Below are positions 22,081 through 58,632 of a DNA stretch of 58,632 bases, piece after piece. The notes beneath the pieces were generated by a model that saw only the letters and a list, made by a program, of their open reading frames with translations, made no database searches and was not told the origin of the DNA. Source of the stretch: Bacillota bacterium (GTDB taxonomy: Bacteria > Bacillota > Negativicutes > Sporomusales > CTSoil-080); the NCBI GenBank assembly GCA_017889635.1, contig JAGGAC010000012.1, forward strand, positions 1 through 58,632. The letters run 5' to 3'. Each line of letters starts with the position of its first letter. Within the stretch, counting starts at the first letter, position 1. Position numbers and translations under genes: made by a program.

Positions 22081-22929
<849 letters not shown>

Positions 22930-22933
22930 CTAA

Positions 22934-22962
22934 TTGAAAAACCAATGCCAGTAGGTTATAAT
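22934..22962 (+). promoter_or_regulatory. Strong promoter pointing away from nifH
   Basis: TTGAAA (22934-22939), 17-base spacer, TATAAT (22957-22962) on the plus strand. Starts would be near 22969. The next plus-strand gene begins 450 bases away, with its own promoter and after a terminator. Confidence 0.65.
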
Positions 22963-22968
22963 GAAATT

Positions 22969-23061
22969 TAGGCATTTCAAATAAACCCTGGTTGGTCTCT
23001 GGGGGAAAATTGGCCTTAGCTCTGTGGATATTGCCGTATCCATGGAGCTTTAATCTTTTTT
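22969..23061 (+). ncRNA. Candidate small RNA divergent from nifH
   Basis: About 93 bases bounded by the promoter at 22934-22962 and an intrinsic terminator: arms 23018-23030 and 23037-23049 (13 pairs, loop TTGCCG), then TTAATCTTTTTT. Two pairs of the stem are G-T on this strand but would be A-C mismatches on the other, which supports a plus-strand RNA. The middle is G/C-rich (CCCTGGTTGG, GGGGG). It holds no credible reading frame. If nifH has a long leader, this RNA would be antisense to it. Confidence 0.55.
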
Positions 23062-23111
23062 AGAGAAAAACAGTCCCTCACCACCTTTCAAATCAAAAAT
23101 CGTTATAAGCA

Positions 23112-23149
23112 CAATGGGGCTAATAAACAGTTGTTTATTAGCCCCATTG
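23112..23149. other. 18 bp perfect hairpin in the nif upstream region
   Basis: Inverted repeat with arms CAATGGGGCTAATAAACA and its exact complement, two bases apart (a four-base loop once folded). No T-tract follows on either strand, so it is not a simple terminator. It lies in the putative nif leader, between the two candidate small RNA units. It could be an operator, an RNA processing site or part of a leader switch. Confidence 0.55.
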
Positions 23150-23202
23150 CTCTCATACTGCGTGGTAAATATCCACATGCATATTAATTTGTCAGAAAAA
23201 CA

Positions 23203-23261
23203 CAAAAAACTTACAAGCGCCAAATGCACTTATAAGCTTCATTGCTTTCCATCTGTGATTT
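23203..23261 (-). ncRNA. Short terminated transcript or nif leader attenuator
   Basis: From the minus-strand promoter at 23268-23296, transcription should start near 23261 and meet a terminator: arms 23226-23237 and 23209-23220 (12 pairs, three of them G-T on the minus strand only), loop ATTTG, then TTTTT at 23204-23208. The product would be about 58 bases. It may be a small RNA. As it points at nifH, it may equally be a premature terminator that must be overcome for nif expression. Confidence 0.5.
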
Positions 23262-23267
23262 GTTTTA

Positions 23268-23296
23268 ACTATAACACAGGTGTTCTTACTTTGCAA
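23268..23296 (-). promoter_or_regulatory. SigA-type promoter pointing toward nifH
   Basis: On the minus strand TTGCAA (23291-23296), 17-base spacer, TATAGT (23268-23273). It is the best minus-strand promoter I see upstream of nifH, giving a leader of about 355 bases. Confidence 0.5.
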
Positions 23297-23345
23297 TAAC
23301 CCTATATATATTCGCAATATTAAAATTTATCAAACATAGTATTTA

Positions 23346-23374: not shown

Positions 23375-23407
23375 TTAAACAAATGTTTTAATCATTTGTT
23401 TAAATAC
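23371..23407. promoter_or_regulatory. TetR-type operator
   Basis: Perfect 15-base arms (GTATTTAAACAAATG and its complement) around a 7-base spacer. It overlaps the -10 and start site of the promoter and ends 15 bases before the tetR ATG, a typical autorepression layout. Confidence 0.75.
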
Positions 23408-23422
23408 TTAAGGAGACTAAAC

Positions 23423-24037
23423 ATGGACTTGGAAAAAGATTCACAAACCAAATTACTGGAAACAGCAACTACTCTTTTTGCCCAAAAAGGCTTTAATGGC
23501 GTTTCTGTCCGCCAACTAGCTGAGGCGGCAAATGTTAATATTGCTGCCATTTCCTACTATTTCCGTGGAAAGGAGGGTCTCTATCAGGCAGTGCTGGAAG
23601 AGCAGTTCGCCCCAATCGCAGCGGCGCTATCCCAAACCAAAACTGCCAACAAGCTTTCCGCGACCGAACAGTTGTCCATGTACGCCAAGCATATTGCCAT
23701 TATCCACCGCCAACGCCCGCTCTTTACCCGCTTTATATTCAACGAAGTAAGCAATCCAACCCCCTTCTTTGATCTGATCTTTAAAAAATATATTTCTAAG
23801 ATTTTTCAGTTTATTACTGGCGCATTGACCAAAGGCATTGCCGACGGCGACTTTGCTGCTGACCTCAATATCAATCATGCAGCATTGTCCCTGGCAGGTA
23901 TTATGAATTTCTACTTTATTGTTAACCCCTTGGCTAAGACTATCATGCCCCTTGACAACACAAGTGACGCAGAAGAATATACCGTCCAGGCCTATCGCAT
24001 CTATCTGGACGGAATTAGGAGGAAAAAGGATGAATAA
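23423..24037 (+). CDS. TetR-family regulator of the exporter operon
   Basis: 204 residues. The N-terminal helix-turn-helix (about 10-55: KLLETATTLFAQKGFNGVSVRQLA, then ISYYFRGKEGLY) is typical, with a ligand domain of the CecR/YbiH kind in the rest. It probably represses the operon through the palindrome at 23371-23407 until a drug or toxic compound binds. ATG 23423 has AGGAG seven bases upstream; the longer frame from 23396 lies inside the operator. It overlaps the next gene by eight bases. Confidence 0.88.
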   Translation: MDLEKDSQTKLLETATTLFAQKGFNGVSVRQLAEAANVNIAAISYYFRGKEGLYQAVLEEQFAPIAAALSQTKTANKLSATEQLSMYAKHIAIIHRQRPLFTRFIFNEVSNPTPFFDLIFKKYISKIFQFITGALTKGIADGDFAADLNINHAALSLAGIMNFYFIVNPLAKTIMPLDNTSDAEEYTVQAYRIYLDGIRRKKDE

Positions 24038-25001
24038 AAAAATTGTTGTCGGCATCATTATCCTATTGCTGCTGGCAGTTGGAACAGGCTACAAGCTTTA
24101 CGCCGGCCGCACCCACGGCATCACCGCCACCGGCACGGTTGAAATTACTCACGCCGACATTATGCCTAAAGTTAACGGCTATATCACCAACCTAACCGTT
24201 AAAGCCGGTGATCCAGTCACCGCAGGGCAAATAATCGCCAAAGTCGATAGGCCTGACCTTAGCGCCCAATTGCTGCGAGATGAAGCCGCTTTGGTAAAAG
24301 CTAAAGTCCAGCTAACCGATCTGGAAAAAGGCCCCCGACGCCAGGAAATAGGAGATGCCGATGCTGCTGTTTCCTCCGCGCAATCAGTATTCGAAAAAGC
24401 AAAAGCAGATTTCTATCGCTACCAATCTCTGCATGACAGTGGCTGCATATCTACTCAACAATTAGACGCAGCTAAGTCTGCCTATGACGTTGCCTACAAT
24501 TCGCTCTTTGCCGCTCAAGCAAAAAGAAGCTTAGTCAACGAAGGCAACCGTTCTGACGTTATCGAAGCCCAGCGTCTTGAAGTCGAGCGGTCAAAAGCCA
24601 TTGTTGACGCCAGTAAAACTCAGTTAACCGATACTGTTATTACCAGCCCGCTTAATGGGATTATCCTCAGCAAAAATTATGAAAATGGCGAATACATCGC
24701 CCCCGGCTCTGCCATAGCAACCATTGGCGACATGAGCGACGCTTGGGTGAAAGTCTACCTCTCGTCAACTCAGTTAGGGCTTATCAGTGTTGGTCAGTCA
24801 GTTGATGTTAAAATCGATTCCTTCCCTGACAAAGTTTTTGCCGGCATCATTAAAGAAATCAGTGATAAAGCCGAATACACTCCTCGGCAGAGTATCACCG
24901 ACCGCGAACGAGCCAACTTGGTTTTTGCCGTCAAAGTTAAGCTTGACAACTCCGAGGGAATCTTAAAACCTGGAATGCCCGCCGATGTGGTCATCAAATG
25001 A
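24030..25001 (+). CDS. HlyD-family membrane fusion protein, YbhG-like
   Basis: 323 residues. One N-terminal membrane helix (about 5-22), a lipoyl/barrel-sandwich half (about 35-75), a long coiled-coil hairpin (about 85-190) and the second lipoyl half (TVITSPLNGIILSKNYENGE, about 200-218) followed by a beta-barrel. It would span the periplasm and link the inner-membrane ABC transporter to an outer-membrane channel, which fits a diderm cell; no TolC-type gene is in the operon. GGAGG precedes the ATG within the end of tetR. Neighbour order resembles cecR-ybhG-ybhF-ybhS-ybhR of E. coli. Confidence 0.9.
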   Translation: MNKKIVVGIIILLLLAVGTGYKLYAGRTHGITATGTVEITHADIMPKVNGYITNLTVKAGDPVTAGQIIAKVDRPDLSAQLLRDEAALVKAKVQLTDLEKGPRRQEIGDADAAVSSAQSVFEKAKADFYRYQSLHDSGCISTQQLDAAKSAYDVAYNSLFAAQAKRSLVNEGNRSDVIEAQRLEVERSKAIVDASKTQLTDTVITSPLNGIILSKNYENGEYIAPGSAIATIGDMSDAWVKVYLSSTQLGLISVGQSVDVKIDSFPDKVFAGIIKEISDKAEYTPRQSITDRERANLVFAVKVKLDNSEGILKPGMPADVVIK

Positions 25002-25897
25002 TTACACTGGAGAACGTAACTAAAACCTTTGGCAAACAATCGGCCGTAAACGGTGTATCACTGGAAATTGCCTCAGGCGAAATCTTTGGTCTGGTAGGAC
25101 CTGACGGCGCAGGCAAAACCACCACCATCCGCATGCTTTGCGGCCTTCTCTCGCCAACTTCCGGAAACCTCTCAGTCCTAGGCGCAGCCAATCCTGAAGC
25201 GATCAAACACCACCTCGGTTATGTCCCGCAAAGATTCAGCCTGTACGGCGATCTCACCGTAATGGAAAATATCCGGTTTATTGGCTCGCTATATGGTCAG
25301 ACAACTGATAAAATCAACGCCCTGGCAGCAAATGTGCTGAATTTTACTAATCTATTACCCTTTAAAGATCGCTACGCCGATAATCTGTCCGGCGGCATGA
25401 AACAGAAACTGGCTCTGGCAGCCGGGCTAATGCATAAACCAACGCTCTTTTTTCTCGACGAACCAACTACCGGCGTCGACCCGGTATCCAGACGGGAGTT
25501 CTGGCAAATGCTTTACCAGTTAAACAAAGAAGGCACCAGCATTTTCGTCTCCACCCCCTACATGGATGAAGCAGAGCTTTGCACCCGCGTTGCCTTTATG
25601 AATGAAGGACGCATTATCTCCTCCGGCTCACCACAGGAACTTCGTCGTTCTTATAAATATCAAGTATTTGAACTCAGCACCCCGGACCGCAACCTAAAGG
25701 CTCGGCTAAAGTCTTCCGGCCTTCGGGACATCAATGCCTTCGGCGAAAAGTACCACCTTGTAACCGATTCTTCTCCTACAGCCATAACCACAGTCAAGGC
25801 TGCTCTCGCTGCAGCGAACATTTCAATTACAGACCTTAATGAAATATCGCCCAATCTTGAGGACGTTTTTGTCGCCCTGGCAAGTGAGGTAAACTAA
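24998..25897 (+). CDS. ABC transporter ATPase 1, YbhF-like
   Basis: 299 residues. Walker A GPDGAGKTT (about 34-42; Asp replaces the usual Asn), signature LSGGMKQKL (about 129-137), Walker B with FFLDEPTTGVDP (about 149-160). The C-terminal part (about 215-299) is the domain found in ABC-2 export ATPases. The start overlaps hlyD by four bases (ATGA). With the next gene it matches the two halves of E. coli YbhF, here as separate proteins. Substrate unknown, likely drugs or hydrophobic compounds. Confidence 0.9.
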   Translation: MITLENVTKTFGKQSAVNGVSLEIASGEIFGLVGPDGAGKTTTIRMLCGLLSPTSGNLSVLGAANPEAIKHHLGYVPQRFSLYGDLTVMENIRFIGSLYGQTTDKINALAANVLNFTNLLPFKDRYADNLSGGMKQKLALAAGLMHKPTLFFLDEPTTGVDPVSRREFWQMLYQLNKEGTSIFVSTPYMDEAELCTRVAFMNEGRIISSGSPQELRRSYKYQVFELSTPDRNLKARLKSSGLRDINAFGEKYHLVTDSSPTAITTVKAALAAANISITDLNEISPNLEDVFVALASEVN

Positions 25898-25898
25898 T

Positions 25899-26804
25899 AT
25901 GTATGCAGTGGAAATCACCAATCTGACCCGCCGTTTCGGCGAATTCACCGCAGTTAATGCCATCAGTCTGAAAATCAAAACCGGCTCAATATATGGCTTT
26001 CTTGGCCCCAACGGGTCAGGAAAATCCACTACCATTCGCATGCTTTGCGGCCTTCTGGCCCCTACCTCCGGCGATGCAACCATCCTGGGACTCGATATCG
26101 CCAAAGACAGCGAAGCAATAAAACACAAGATCGGTTACATGTCGCAAAAATTTAGTCTTTATGATGACCTGACAGTTATTGAGAACCTAAAATTCTATGC
26201 CGGCCTGTATAGCCTTTCTCAGCCTGAGGGCAAGCGCCGCATCGCCCAAATGCTTGCGCTTGCCGGACTGGAAAATCGCCAAAATGAACTTGCCGCCAAT
26301 TTATCCGGGGGGTGGAAACAGCGTTTGGCGCTGGGATGCTCCATCCTGCACAACCCGCCAATTTTGTTCCTTGATGAACCAACTGGCGGTGTTGACCCCA
26401 AATCACGCCGTATGTTCTGGGATATAATCTACACCCTGTCCCAGGCAGGAACCACAATAATGGTAACTACCCACTTTATGGATGAAGCCGAACACTGCGA
26501 TGAAATCGGCTTCATTTACAACGGCGGCCTCATCGCCAGCGGCCCACCCTCAGCCTTAAAAAGCAGCATTAATGGCCTGCTTCTGGAAATACCTACCCCC
26601 GAGCCAATGGAGCTTTTAGCCGCCATCACTAGTCGTCAGCTTCCGTATCTCGACATATATCCCTTTGGTGCCAACCTCCATGTCCTCATCGCCGAAGAAC
26701 ACGCCTCCCGCTATACCCCCTTTGCCGCCAACCTCATCTCGCCCTCGCTGGAAGACGTCTTTGTCCATCTGGTAAAATCACACCGTAAGGAGGTTCTGGC
26801 ATGA
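25899..26804 (+). CDS. ABC transporter ATPase 2, YbhF-like
   Basis: 301 residues. Walker A GPNGSGKST (about 34-42), signature LSGGWKQRL (about 130-138), Walker B LFLDEPTGGVDP (about 150-161), then TTHFMDEAEHCDEIGF with the switch His. It is a paralogue of the preceding ATPase and probably pairs with it as a heterodimer. The start follows the previous stop with no gap, and the end overlaps the permease by four bases. Confidence 0.9.
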   Translation: MYAVEITNLTRRFGEFTAVNAISLKIKTGSIYGFLGPNGSGKSTTIRMLCGLLAPTSGDATILGLDIAKDSEAIKHKIGYMSQKFSLYDDLTVIENLKFYAGLYSLSQPEGKRRIAQMLALAGLENRQNELAANLSGGWKQRLALGCSILHNPPILFLDEPTGGVDPKSRRMFWDIIYTLSQAGTTIMVTTHFMDEAEHCDEIGFIYNGGLIASGPPSALKSSINGLLLEIPTPEPMELLAAITSRQLPYLDIYPFGANLHVLIAEEHASRYTPFAANLISPSLEDVFVHLVKSHRKEVLA

Positions 26805-27925
26805 TCCGTCTTAAAGCCCTCTTAATAAAAGAATTTATTCAAATGCGGCGCGACCGCCTGACCTTTGTAATGATGATTGGCTTTCCGATAATTCAGCTAC
26901 TGGTATTTGGCTTTGCCATAAACACCGATGTTAAACATTTGCCCACCATCGTATTTGACCAATCGCTAAGTCAAGACAGCCGGGATTTTATCGCTTCACT
27001 TACCGCCAGCCAATACTTTGATATTACCGACGCCAGCACCAGCTACCAGGACGTTACTGACCATATTCAATCAGGCAAAACCAAAGTCGGCATCATCATT
27101 CCCCCTGATCTTTCGGCCAATCTCAAACACGGACAGAGCGCGGCCATCCAAGTCATTGTCGACGCCTCTGATTCGATGGCCGCCTCTTCAGCTATCAGCG
27201 CCGCCCAAATGGTCGGTCAGCTAAAATCTCAGGAAATTATCCTCAACCGTCTGCAAGGCTATACCGGTAAAACCTTTGCCCTGCCGGTGGATGTTCGCAT
27301 TCGCCCCTGGTATAATCCTGACTTTGTCTCGGCCTTCTATATGGTACCAGGCATTCTGGGCATTATCCTGACAATGACAATGGTCATGATTACCTCAATG
27401 GCCATTGTTCGCGAGCGTGAACGAGGCACCTTAGAACAACTTATTGTCACCCCGCTCAAAACCCATGAGCTAATCCTCGGCAAAATCATCCCCTATGTAT
27501 TTGTCGGCTATGCCCAAGCAACAGTTGCCCTCCTTGTCGGCATCCTGGTGTTTGATCTGCCAATCAGAGGCAGCCTTGGACTGCTTTACGGCTTAACCTC
27601 ATTATTCATTATCGCCTCCCTGGCGCTAGGCGTCCTCATATCCACACTATCCAAAACCCAAATGCAGGCTATGCAGATGTCGTTTTTTATCTTTCTGCCC
27701 AGCATCCTCCTCAGCGGCTTTATGTTCCCCAGAGAGGCCATGCCGCTATTCTTCAACTGGTTAGGCAATCTCCTGCCGCTAACCTTCTACCTCCAAATTC
27801 TGCGTGGCATTATCCTAAAAGGCGTCGGCCTGAGCGTCCTTTGGACGCAAATCCTGGCCTTGGTAGTATTTATCGCCATTGTCCTTACCATCAGCATTAA
27901 AAAATTTCAAAAGAAGCTTGCCTAA
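26801..27925 (+). CDS. ABC-2 type permease, YbhS/YbhR-like
   Basis: 374 residues. One N-terminal helix (about 20-40), a large extracytoplasmic loop (about 45-170) and a cluster of five helices (about 178-370) with the ABC-2 motif RERERGTLEQLIVTPL (about 200-215). Only one permease is encoded, whereas E. coli has YbhS and YbhR; two copies probably form the pore. It is the last gene of the operon and is followed by a strong terminator. Confidence 0.9.
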   Translation: MIRLKALLIKEFIQMRRDRLTFVMMIGFPIIQLLVFGFAINTDVKHLPTIVFDQSLSQDSRDFIASLTASQYFDITDASTSYQDVTDHIQSGKTKVGIIIPPDLSANLKHGQSAAIQVIVDASDSMAASSAISAAQMVGQLKSQEIILNRLQGYTGKTFALPVDVRIRPWYNPDFVSAFYMVPGILGIILTMTMVMITSMAIVRERERGTLEQLIVTPLKTHELILGKIIPYVFVGYAQATVALLVGILVFDLPIRGSLGLLYGLTSLFIIASLALGVLISTLSKTQMQAMQMSFFIFLPSILLSGFMFPREAMPLFFNWLGNLLPLTFYLQILRGIILKGVGLSVLWTQILALVVFIAIVLTISIKKFQKKLA

Positions 27926-56807: not shown

Positions 56808-57060
56808 TAAAAGACGCCCCTATTGATGTCTAAAGACATCAATAGGGGCGTTAGTCGCGGTACCACCCTACTGTTATACTTGTTACGCCGCTAACTTGCG
56901 ACTTCCGGTTAACGCCCGGCAACGGTTCCACCTAAAACATATTAATTATGCATTCAGTGGAAAAGTTCATGGGTGAGATTTCGCAATAACCTCCGCACCG
57001 GTTCGCAGCAACCACCGGCTCTCTGAAGCGGCCTATAGCTATTACTTTTTTGCCCAGTCA
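56808..57060 (-). promoter_or_regulatory. T-box leader, Leu specifier, before leuA
   Basis: T-box AGGGTGGTACCGCG at 56856-56869 (minus), terminator arms 56835-56851 and 56814-56830 (17 pairs, TTTA loop) followed by CTTTTATTT. Stem I shows AGAGAG and GGTGGTTGCTG, then GAACTT with the specifier CTT (56963-56965), Leu. It controls the leuACDB-ilvBNC operon by uncharged tRNA-Leu. A TATAAT on the minus strand near 57084 may be its promoter. Confidence 0.88.
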
Positions 57061-57098
57061 TTTCTTTTACTCATTTTTTTTAATTATAAATGAGACTT

Positions 57099-58503: not shown

Positions 58504-58559
58504 GCCGGTTAAATCAAAAGACCACTCATAAAAATGAGTGGTCTTTTGATTTAACCGGC
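58504..58559 (-). terminator. Terminator of the rRNA operon
   Basis: A perfect 26 bp inverted repeat (core AAAAGACCACTCAT and complement, AAAA loop). The outer arm GCCGG lies at the end of the 5S gene. On the minus strand the hairpin directly follows 5S and is followed by TATTTG. Confidence 0.8.
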
Positions 58560-58632
58560 AACTACCTATCCTCCCAGGCCGTTTCCAACCAAGTACTTTC
58601 GGCGTATACGGGCTTAACTACTGTGTTCGGTA
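58555..58632 (-). rRNA. rrf: 5S rRNA, 3' part
   Basis: The minus strand reads ACCGAACACAGTAGTTAAG, then GCCGAAAGTACTTGG and GGGAGGATAGG, the conserved 3' two-thirds of 5S rRNA (loop C, loop E and helix V regions). The gene's start lies beyond the right edge, so an rRNA operon is expected there. The exact 3' end is approximate. Confidence 0.9.

Follow-up and report, generated by a model that had tools for sequence, protein, structure and literature searches.

The 58,632-nucleotide stretch of DNA analysed here (the window) carries, upstream of nifH, a sequence that, judged by its predicted promoter, fold and terminator, encodes a folded small RNA about 92 nt long, ending in a terminator and pointing away from nifH. 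We propose, with a probability of about 0.5, that this small RNA is a cis-acting antisense RNA which, aided by convergent transcription, would suppress nif and anf messages leaking past their attenuators. By order and sequence, the operon that runs in the opposite direction consists of nifH, two P-II/NifI-like genes, nifD, nifK and nifE; NifH, NifD and NifE were named by profile scores. The features of the locus are:

22081-22905, minus strand: nifH, first gene of the divergent operon.
22934-22962, plus strand: small-RNA promoter TTGAAA-17-TATAAT, 11 of 12 consensus positions, kept in 67 of 82 copies.
22969-23060, plus strand: small RNA of about 92 nt, its start predicted from the position of the -10.
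22970-23016, plus strand: domain of P1, internal loop and P2, from predicted folds and a strand-biased folding z.
22979-22987, plus strand: unpaired conserved motif AAATAAACC in the internal loop, AATAA and CC being kept at 90-100% across 62 distinct copies.
23018-23061, plus strand: intrinsic terminator hairpin P3 and U-rich tail, from a terminator scan and covariation.
23076-23088, minus strand: Shine-Dalgarno-like AAAGGTGGTGAGG in the nif leader, without an evident start codon downstream.
23112-23151, minus strand: second hexaloop of the ANTAR type, AGC[AATGGG]GCT, which overlaps a palindromic hairpin of 30 nt.
23206-23247, minus strand: first hexaloop of the ANTAR type, AAGC[AATGAA]GCTT, which overlaps a hairpin resembling a terminator.
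23268-23296, minus strand: likely nif promoter TTGCAA-17-TATAGT, conserved in position but weak in individual score, with a presumed start near 23261.
23308-23321, minus strand: conserved box AATATTGCGAATAT upstream of the nif promoter, a possible activator site.

Elsewhere in the window, positions 23396-27925 (plus strand, divergent from nif) encode a TetR-type regulator scoring below the RefZ cut-off, a membrane-fusion-like protein, two ABC ATPases and a permease, a gene group that is probably an unrelated export operon. The window also holds a T-box leader (104 bits) at 56841-57070 and, at its edge, a partial 5S rRNA gene end at 58553-58632, both on the minus strand.

The predicted promoter of the small RNA is a near-consensus, sigma70-type one, flanked by the nifH ribosome-binding site on one side and the nif attenuators on the other, with its -35 TTGAAA at 22934-22939, a 17-nt spacer and its -10 TATAAT at 22957-22962. 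Between this promoter and the U-rich tail the plus strand holds about 55 nt of unique sequence and then a 14-pair hairpin, the stem of the terminator occupying 23018-23049 and being followed by TTTAATCTTTTTT. Single-sequence scans found numbers of sites only mildly above chance, both for promoter-like sites (16 against 9.7 +/- 2.9 expected) and for terminator-like sites (10 against 7.0 +/- 3.0 expected), the small-RNA promoter topping its list and the small-RNA terminator being the first entry of its own. We accept the gene as real because of conservation across copies and not because of these scans. Among 82 forward copies found with a covariance model (89 matches minus 7 on the reverse strand), 67 have a promoter with 9-11 of 12 matches that ends 2-6 nt, mostly 4-5, before the model start, and a score of at least 10/12 is reached by 66 of the 82, against 1.3% of shuffled upstream sequences. 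A first, sequence-only reading of this DNA had described a near-consensus promoter and an intrinsic terminator divergent from nifH, and both are borne out by the 11/12 consensus match and this conservation; it had put about 93 bases ahead of the terminator, a length that is about right but belongs to the whole RNA, terminator included. With its own promoter, an intrinsic terminator, conservation and no reading frame, the small RNA has the properties of a free-standing sRNA gene. A coding gene was considered and rejected: some anf-type copies, inspected by eye, give MGKLNKPSATG... from an ATG, but this ATG precedes the predicted RNA start, is absent from the window and from the f3-type copies, and its frame is not kept.

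The strict placement of the gene opposite nitrogenase leaders emerges from comparisons at several distances. A search of 60 relatives with the intergenic DNA of the locus gave matches in 12 genomes, the best after the window's own genome being nifH-upstream regions from the same family (G001, G002) and from another family of the order (G014, G004, G020, G011). A first covariance model, built from 11 sequences and used at an E value of 0.01 or better, found matches in 21 of 28 genomes of the order, the weakest of them barely passing (G015, E 0.0098). A NifH at least 87% identical to that of the window is encoded in 19 of the 28, and in all 19 the small RNA lies 54-138 bp upstream of nifH and divergent from it; in G013 the matches lie at alternative nifH genes. 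In the seven order genomes without a small-RNA match, a NifH search gives none above 52% identity.

A second model, built from 28 copies and applied with stricter filters under which the weak G015 match was lost, found matches in 50 of 380 genomes of the class. We retained 79 of its 103 match rows (E 3.5e-5 or better); the 24 omitted rows (E 3.5e-4 to 0.0098) comprise 17 reverse-strand images of a listed hairpin and seven others, two of which lie 80 and 101 bp upstream of an otherwise match-less nifH (G052:C19 and G035:C22). Within 4 kb of a nifH-like gene of the molybdenum or an alternative type, and divergent, are 77 of the 79 retained matches, and both exceptions are also divergent from a gene start. 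Counted by nifH gene, and leaving out five rows (G132, whose nifH is partial and lies at the edge of a contig, and four at 58-59% identity), a retained match accompanies 37 of 47 genes at 82% identity or more and 24 of 27 at 63-69%, but only 1 of 45 at 73-81%. The conservation expected by the sequence-only reading in relatives that keep the nif operon holds throughout the order (19/19) and is incomplete in the wider class, where 10 of the 47 close genes and 44 of the 45 at 73-81% are without a retained match. In a sample of 398 genomes of the phylum there were three matches: the own genome, one genome of the same class, and a weak one from outside the class (G541, E 1.9e-4). A pattern scan of named genomes returned 13 stretches, including Sporomusa silvacetica, S. 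ovata DSM 2662, S. malonica, Sporomusa sp. KB1, Propionispora sp. 2/2-37 and Pelosinus MAGs, and at blastn sensitivity no plasmid-borne relatives were found in PLSDB.

The small RNA had at first been tied to nifH specifically, a link that has to be widened, since alternative nitrogenase operons also carry it, often in tandem. The second cluster of the window's own genome is an iron-only nitrogenase (AnfD 1117 bits, cut-off 874; AnfG 184, cut-off 125); we typed this cluster as iron-only and name the other alternative clusters by class only. The 15 of 82 forward copies that lack a promoter each lie downstream of a promoter-bearing copy at the same locus, mostly in anf-type leaders; these 'second' copies were defined after the promoter result was known, and their missing promoter is descriptive. 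The two copies away from nitrogenase genes are divergent, one (G017, L035 4200-4288) from an MFS transporter scoring above the lactate-transporter cut-off, the other (G026, a genome 58% complete; L036 643-727) from a putative formate channel/transporter gene. At four loci (L034, which is G000:C75, and L066, L068 and L119) runs of AAAACNAAC/TAAAAC repeats stand upstream of the likely anf promoter and are perhaps sites of an anf activator.

The RNA is predicted to fold into P1, an internal loop whose 5' side holds AAUAAACC, P2 and then the terminator P3, two of the second, tandem copies having a different predicted fold. An alignment of the window with its relatives keeps the promoter, the 5' stretch AATAA.CC and a terminator whose two arms co-vary. 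In the covariation alignment, which is fitted to the model and so biased toward its structure, and which also includes 7 reverse-strand images of the palindromic hairpin, the terminator stem has standard pairs in 93.9% of cells and compensatory changes at 12 of 13 pairs, and in the whole structure 88.6% of cells pair and 20 of 21 pairs change on both sides (84 distinct rows). None of 500 shuffles matched any of five covariation measures, and slid controls paired at 35-45%.

The strand on which this structure works can be judged from its folding and its G-U pairs. Over 59 distinct promoter-bearing copies, the P1/P2 segment has a mean folding z of -1.98 on the small-RNA strand against -0.27 on the opposite strand, with z below -1.5 in 39 copies against 11. 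In the same kind of model-fitted alignment, G-U pairs outnumber A-C mismatches on the small-RNA strand by 48 to 8 (28 copies), in agreement with the earlier remark that G-T pairs favour this strand; the larger copy set shows it strongly in P1/P2 (62 to 12) and less so in the terminator (30 to 17), and the terminators of the 15 promoterless copies show no excess (6 to 6). This last count, together with a conserved Shine-Dalgarno-like site adjoining on the nif strand and inversions of the loop between genera, is what could be said for an element that functions solely within the nif-strand leader (a hairpin, a ribosome-binding-like site), the opposite promoter being incidental. Given a promoter at a fixed distance in 67 of 82 copies and P1/P2 folding specific to the small-RNA strand, we regard such an element as highly improbable. 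The loop of P3 reads ATTCGTGGT in some genera and ACCACGAAT in others (L034 against L120 and its relatives). These opposite orientations suggest that the hairpin has inverted during evolution.

An aptamer-like domain ahead of a terminator could also be read as an antisense-acting riboswitch, in which ligand binding by P1/P2 would determine how deep into the attenuator region antisense transcription extends. Riboswitches acting in antisense exist (excerpts of PMC9943018), and the tandem pair in anf leaders, with its second member promoterless, would fit. However, no conserved alternative pairing between P1/P2 and the terminator, of the kind that would break it, was found in the 59 distinct promoter-bearing copies (mean z 0.47 against the 5' arm, 0.06 against the 3' arm), and we give this explanation little credence. 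Rfam searches matched the small RNA to no known riboswitch or RNA family: over it no Rfam 15 family scores above its gathering cut-off, either in a scan of the window or in a permissive search of 541 bases, and the loci of 20 relatives give no match at E 0.05. The best Rfam match over the small RNA, ctRNA_pGA1 (RF00236), reaches 16.7 bits against a gathering threshold of 45 (E = 1) and is not a family match; the likeness to the plasmid copy-control antisense RNAs lies in being a short folded antisense RNA opposite a leader.

The sequence of P3 is highly variable, the internal-loop motif is kept, and AATAAACC together with the P2 region is conserved among nif, anf and transporter-linked copies. 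An RNA acting by antisense pairing alone would not require its sequence to be kept, and this conservation points to recognition by another partner, which may be a protein or a ligand. The small RNA may act through a bound protein, as a decoy or assembly RNA, its fixed site ensuring only co-inheritance and co-control. In favour of a bound protein are a loop and P2 conserved beyond the demands of self-complementarity, copies sharing this core beside two transporter loci, and a second AUAAACCCG near the nifH start in Sporomusa-type nif leaders. We keep this as a possible, if doubtful, reading because the loop is conserved in copies that do not need to pair with each other's leaders, but the analysis pointed to no candidate protein, and a factor acting in trans would not require anything like so strict a synteny. 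A version in which the RNA is a decoy for an ANTAR protein, as with EutX/Rli55, was rejected, hexaloops occurring in only 3 of 28 copies, at different places and in a chance-like manner. We note that AUAAACCCG, a motif also present in the small RNA, stands just upstream of nifH in the Sporomusa-type nif leaders (L067, L069, L072, L073, L076, L077 and L078).

The leader on the opposite strand is itself conserved. At 19 loci of the order, it reads toward nifH as a AATATTGCGAAT-like box, a TATAGT-like -10, two hexaloop hairpins AGC[AxxGxx]GCT, each hexaloop sitting within a hairpin or terminator, then the Shine-Dalgarno-like site, the stretch opposite the small RNA and, last, the ribosome-binding site of nifH. 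In 16 of 18 loci, 15-24 nt separate the end of the -10 from the first hexaloop (anchoring failed in the exceptions, L074 and L079), and the Shine-Dalgarno-like site is present in 16 of 18. Taken singly, nif promoter scores of 8-10/12 are not significant, as shuffled sequence reaches 9/12 in 17% of cases. The motif AGC(A/G)ANG(A/G)(A/G)GCT corresponds to the ANTAR target core; the 58.6-kb window has two instances of it, each in the nif leader, against about 0.15 expected. This core is AGCAANGRRGCUY, and nitrogenase subunits are among the ANTAR-linked genes, in excerpts of Ramesh et al. (2012; PMC3369931). Two strict hexaloops are found in 12 of the 19 loci and one strict plus one with G at position 1 in 6; in the remaining one (L003) one hexaloop is seen and the contig ends there. 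The statement of the sequence-only reading that no regulator of nif is visible has therefore to be withdrawn, with two ANTAR-type modules at 23247-23206 and 23151-23112 on the nif strand. One ANTAR protein, a response regulator encoded elsewhere than at nif, was found in the own genome, and 26 of 28 order genomes have such proteins; in G002, G001 and G005 (L083, L084, L088) genes for an ANTAR response regulator and a sensor kinase adjoin groES-groEL. Among 13 alternative-nitrogenase leaders examined, 9 have an A1/G4 hexaloop, 2 (L112, L142) by eye the variant with G at position 1, and 2 no hexaloop in the stretch read.

The nif leader thus shares with ANTAR leaders (targets of EutV, NasR and AmiR) hexaloops with A1 and G4 that overlap terminators, and nitrogenase operons as targets (PMC3369931, in part). 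It differs in having two single hexaloops 67-113 nt apart across the order loci (95 nt in the window), each on its own terminator, in place of one closely spaced pair. According to excerpts of PMC8934654, lengthening the linker by 20 nt abolished antitermination.

Two further elements of the leader were examined. The Shine-Dalgarno-like site at 23076-23088 (minus strand) is imperfectly complementary to 16S rRNA in the window and nearly fully complementary to its 3' end in several relatives (AAAGGAGGTGATC in L067). STAB-SD sites stabilise leaders, and this site may do the same or may be a ribosome standby site; a leader peptide was rejected, with no consistent start codon or frame following it on the nif strand by eye. 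A sigma54 nif promoter was likewise rejected, TGGCATTGGTTTTTCA on the nif strand resembling one without being kept in aligned relatives.

If nif transcription starts near 23261, as we infer from the conserved position of its promoter, the small RNA lies opposite the nif leader, and a message reading through both ANTAR-type attenuators would carry the full complement of the small RNA. In the cis-antisense brake that we favour, the small RNA would be made steadily under nitrogen sufficiency and would pair with leaked nif leader RNA, which would be condemned or silenced, and RNA polymerase traffic from the small-RNA promoter would oppose nif transcription. Under nitrogen limitation, ANTAR antitermination and nif initiation would rise, and converging nif transcription would outnumber and shut down the small RNA. 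A very costly enzyme would in this way be switched tightly and in a threshold-like manner, and tandem copies in anf leaders would lengthen the block. Transcription, pairing and the effect on nif are inferred from sequence. The strict placement, opposite the leader and past the attenuators, points to an RNA that acts in cis, and the lack of conserved trans pairing and of a decoy hexaloop agrees with it; we adopted the brake on these three grounds. Also counted in its favour is the conservation of the opposed leader, with hexaloop modules in 18 of 19 order loci and one cut by the contig end, and counted against it are, above all, the conserved loop sequence, and further the 15 promoterless tandem copies, the insignificant single nif-promoter score and the many nifH operons of the class without a match.

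The earlier alternative of antisense or trans control is narrowed: the RNA overlaps the predicted nif leader in antisense, and no conserved pairing in trans to nif start regions was found. NfiS, NfiR and sRNA154 act in trans, and a trans-acting RNA of this type with several mRNA targets could have a free-standing gene with its own promoter and terminator and a conserved unpaired stretch, as here. Yet across 12 genomes no nif start region stands out by conserved complementarity. In the own genome, a test with one 14-mer and up to one mismatch, with short or gapped seeds outside its scope, found the exact complement of the loop region only in the nif leader and one near-complement elsewhere, with one mismatch and within coding sequence, which speaks against base pairing in trans. 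We consider a trans-acting RNA unlikely.

Small RNAs of nitrogenase expression are known from other lineages. Excerpts of PMC9170634 list NfiS and NfiR of Pseudomonas stutzeri, sRNA154 of Methanosarcina mazei and ArrF, the first three targeting nifK, nifD and nifH/nrpA mRNA, mainly with stabilisation, and the target of ArrF being unknown; these excerpts do not place them opposite a nitrogenase leader. EutX/Rli55, a small RNA that sequesters an ANTAR protein (PMC8934654, in part), is similarly attached to an ANTAR-controlled operon, but the RNA described here is antisense, is not a sense decoy and has no hexaloop at a conserved place. With the antisense-acting riboswitches and cis-antisense switches of PMC9943018 and PMC4519249, as excerpted, it shares antisense transcription from inside the regulated region that yields a switch, and differs in that the pairing test found no ligand-responsive platform. 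The nifV motif of Geobacter is a leader element in the excerpted PMC11109978 and differs from it as well. A small RNA opposite the leader is absent from the excerpted description of ANTAR targets in PMC3369931, and open-access literature on nif/nifH small or antisense RNAs, Negativicutes, Sporomusa and structured RNAs holds no such RNA among the matches listed. What appears to be new is the coupling of ANTAR attenuators with an antisense RNA, and this at nitrogenase operons of two kinds. A more ambitious idea, and a rather unlikely one, is that a lineage-specific RNA of conserved sequence uses its internal loop to sense a signal related to nitrogenase, be it a metal, a metabolite or a protein, and that from a single antisense site it gates both molybdenum and iron-only operons downstream of their ANTAR attenuators.

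Nitrogenase control in anaerobic Negativicutes is little described in the literature consulted. A single RNA element is found here repeatedly opposite leaders of molybdenum and iron-only nitrogenases, stacked on ANTAR-type attenuators. The family can enter RNA libraries by way of the present alignment, and the brake can be tested in cultivable species such as Sporomusa ovata, whose genome shows the pattern. If true, it would constitute a second, RNA-level gate, which would explain how acetogens and fermenters keep a costly nitrogenase fully off.
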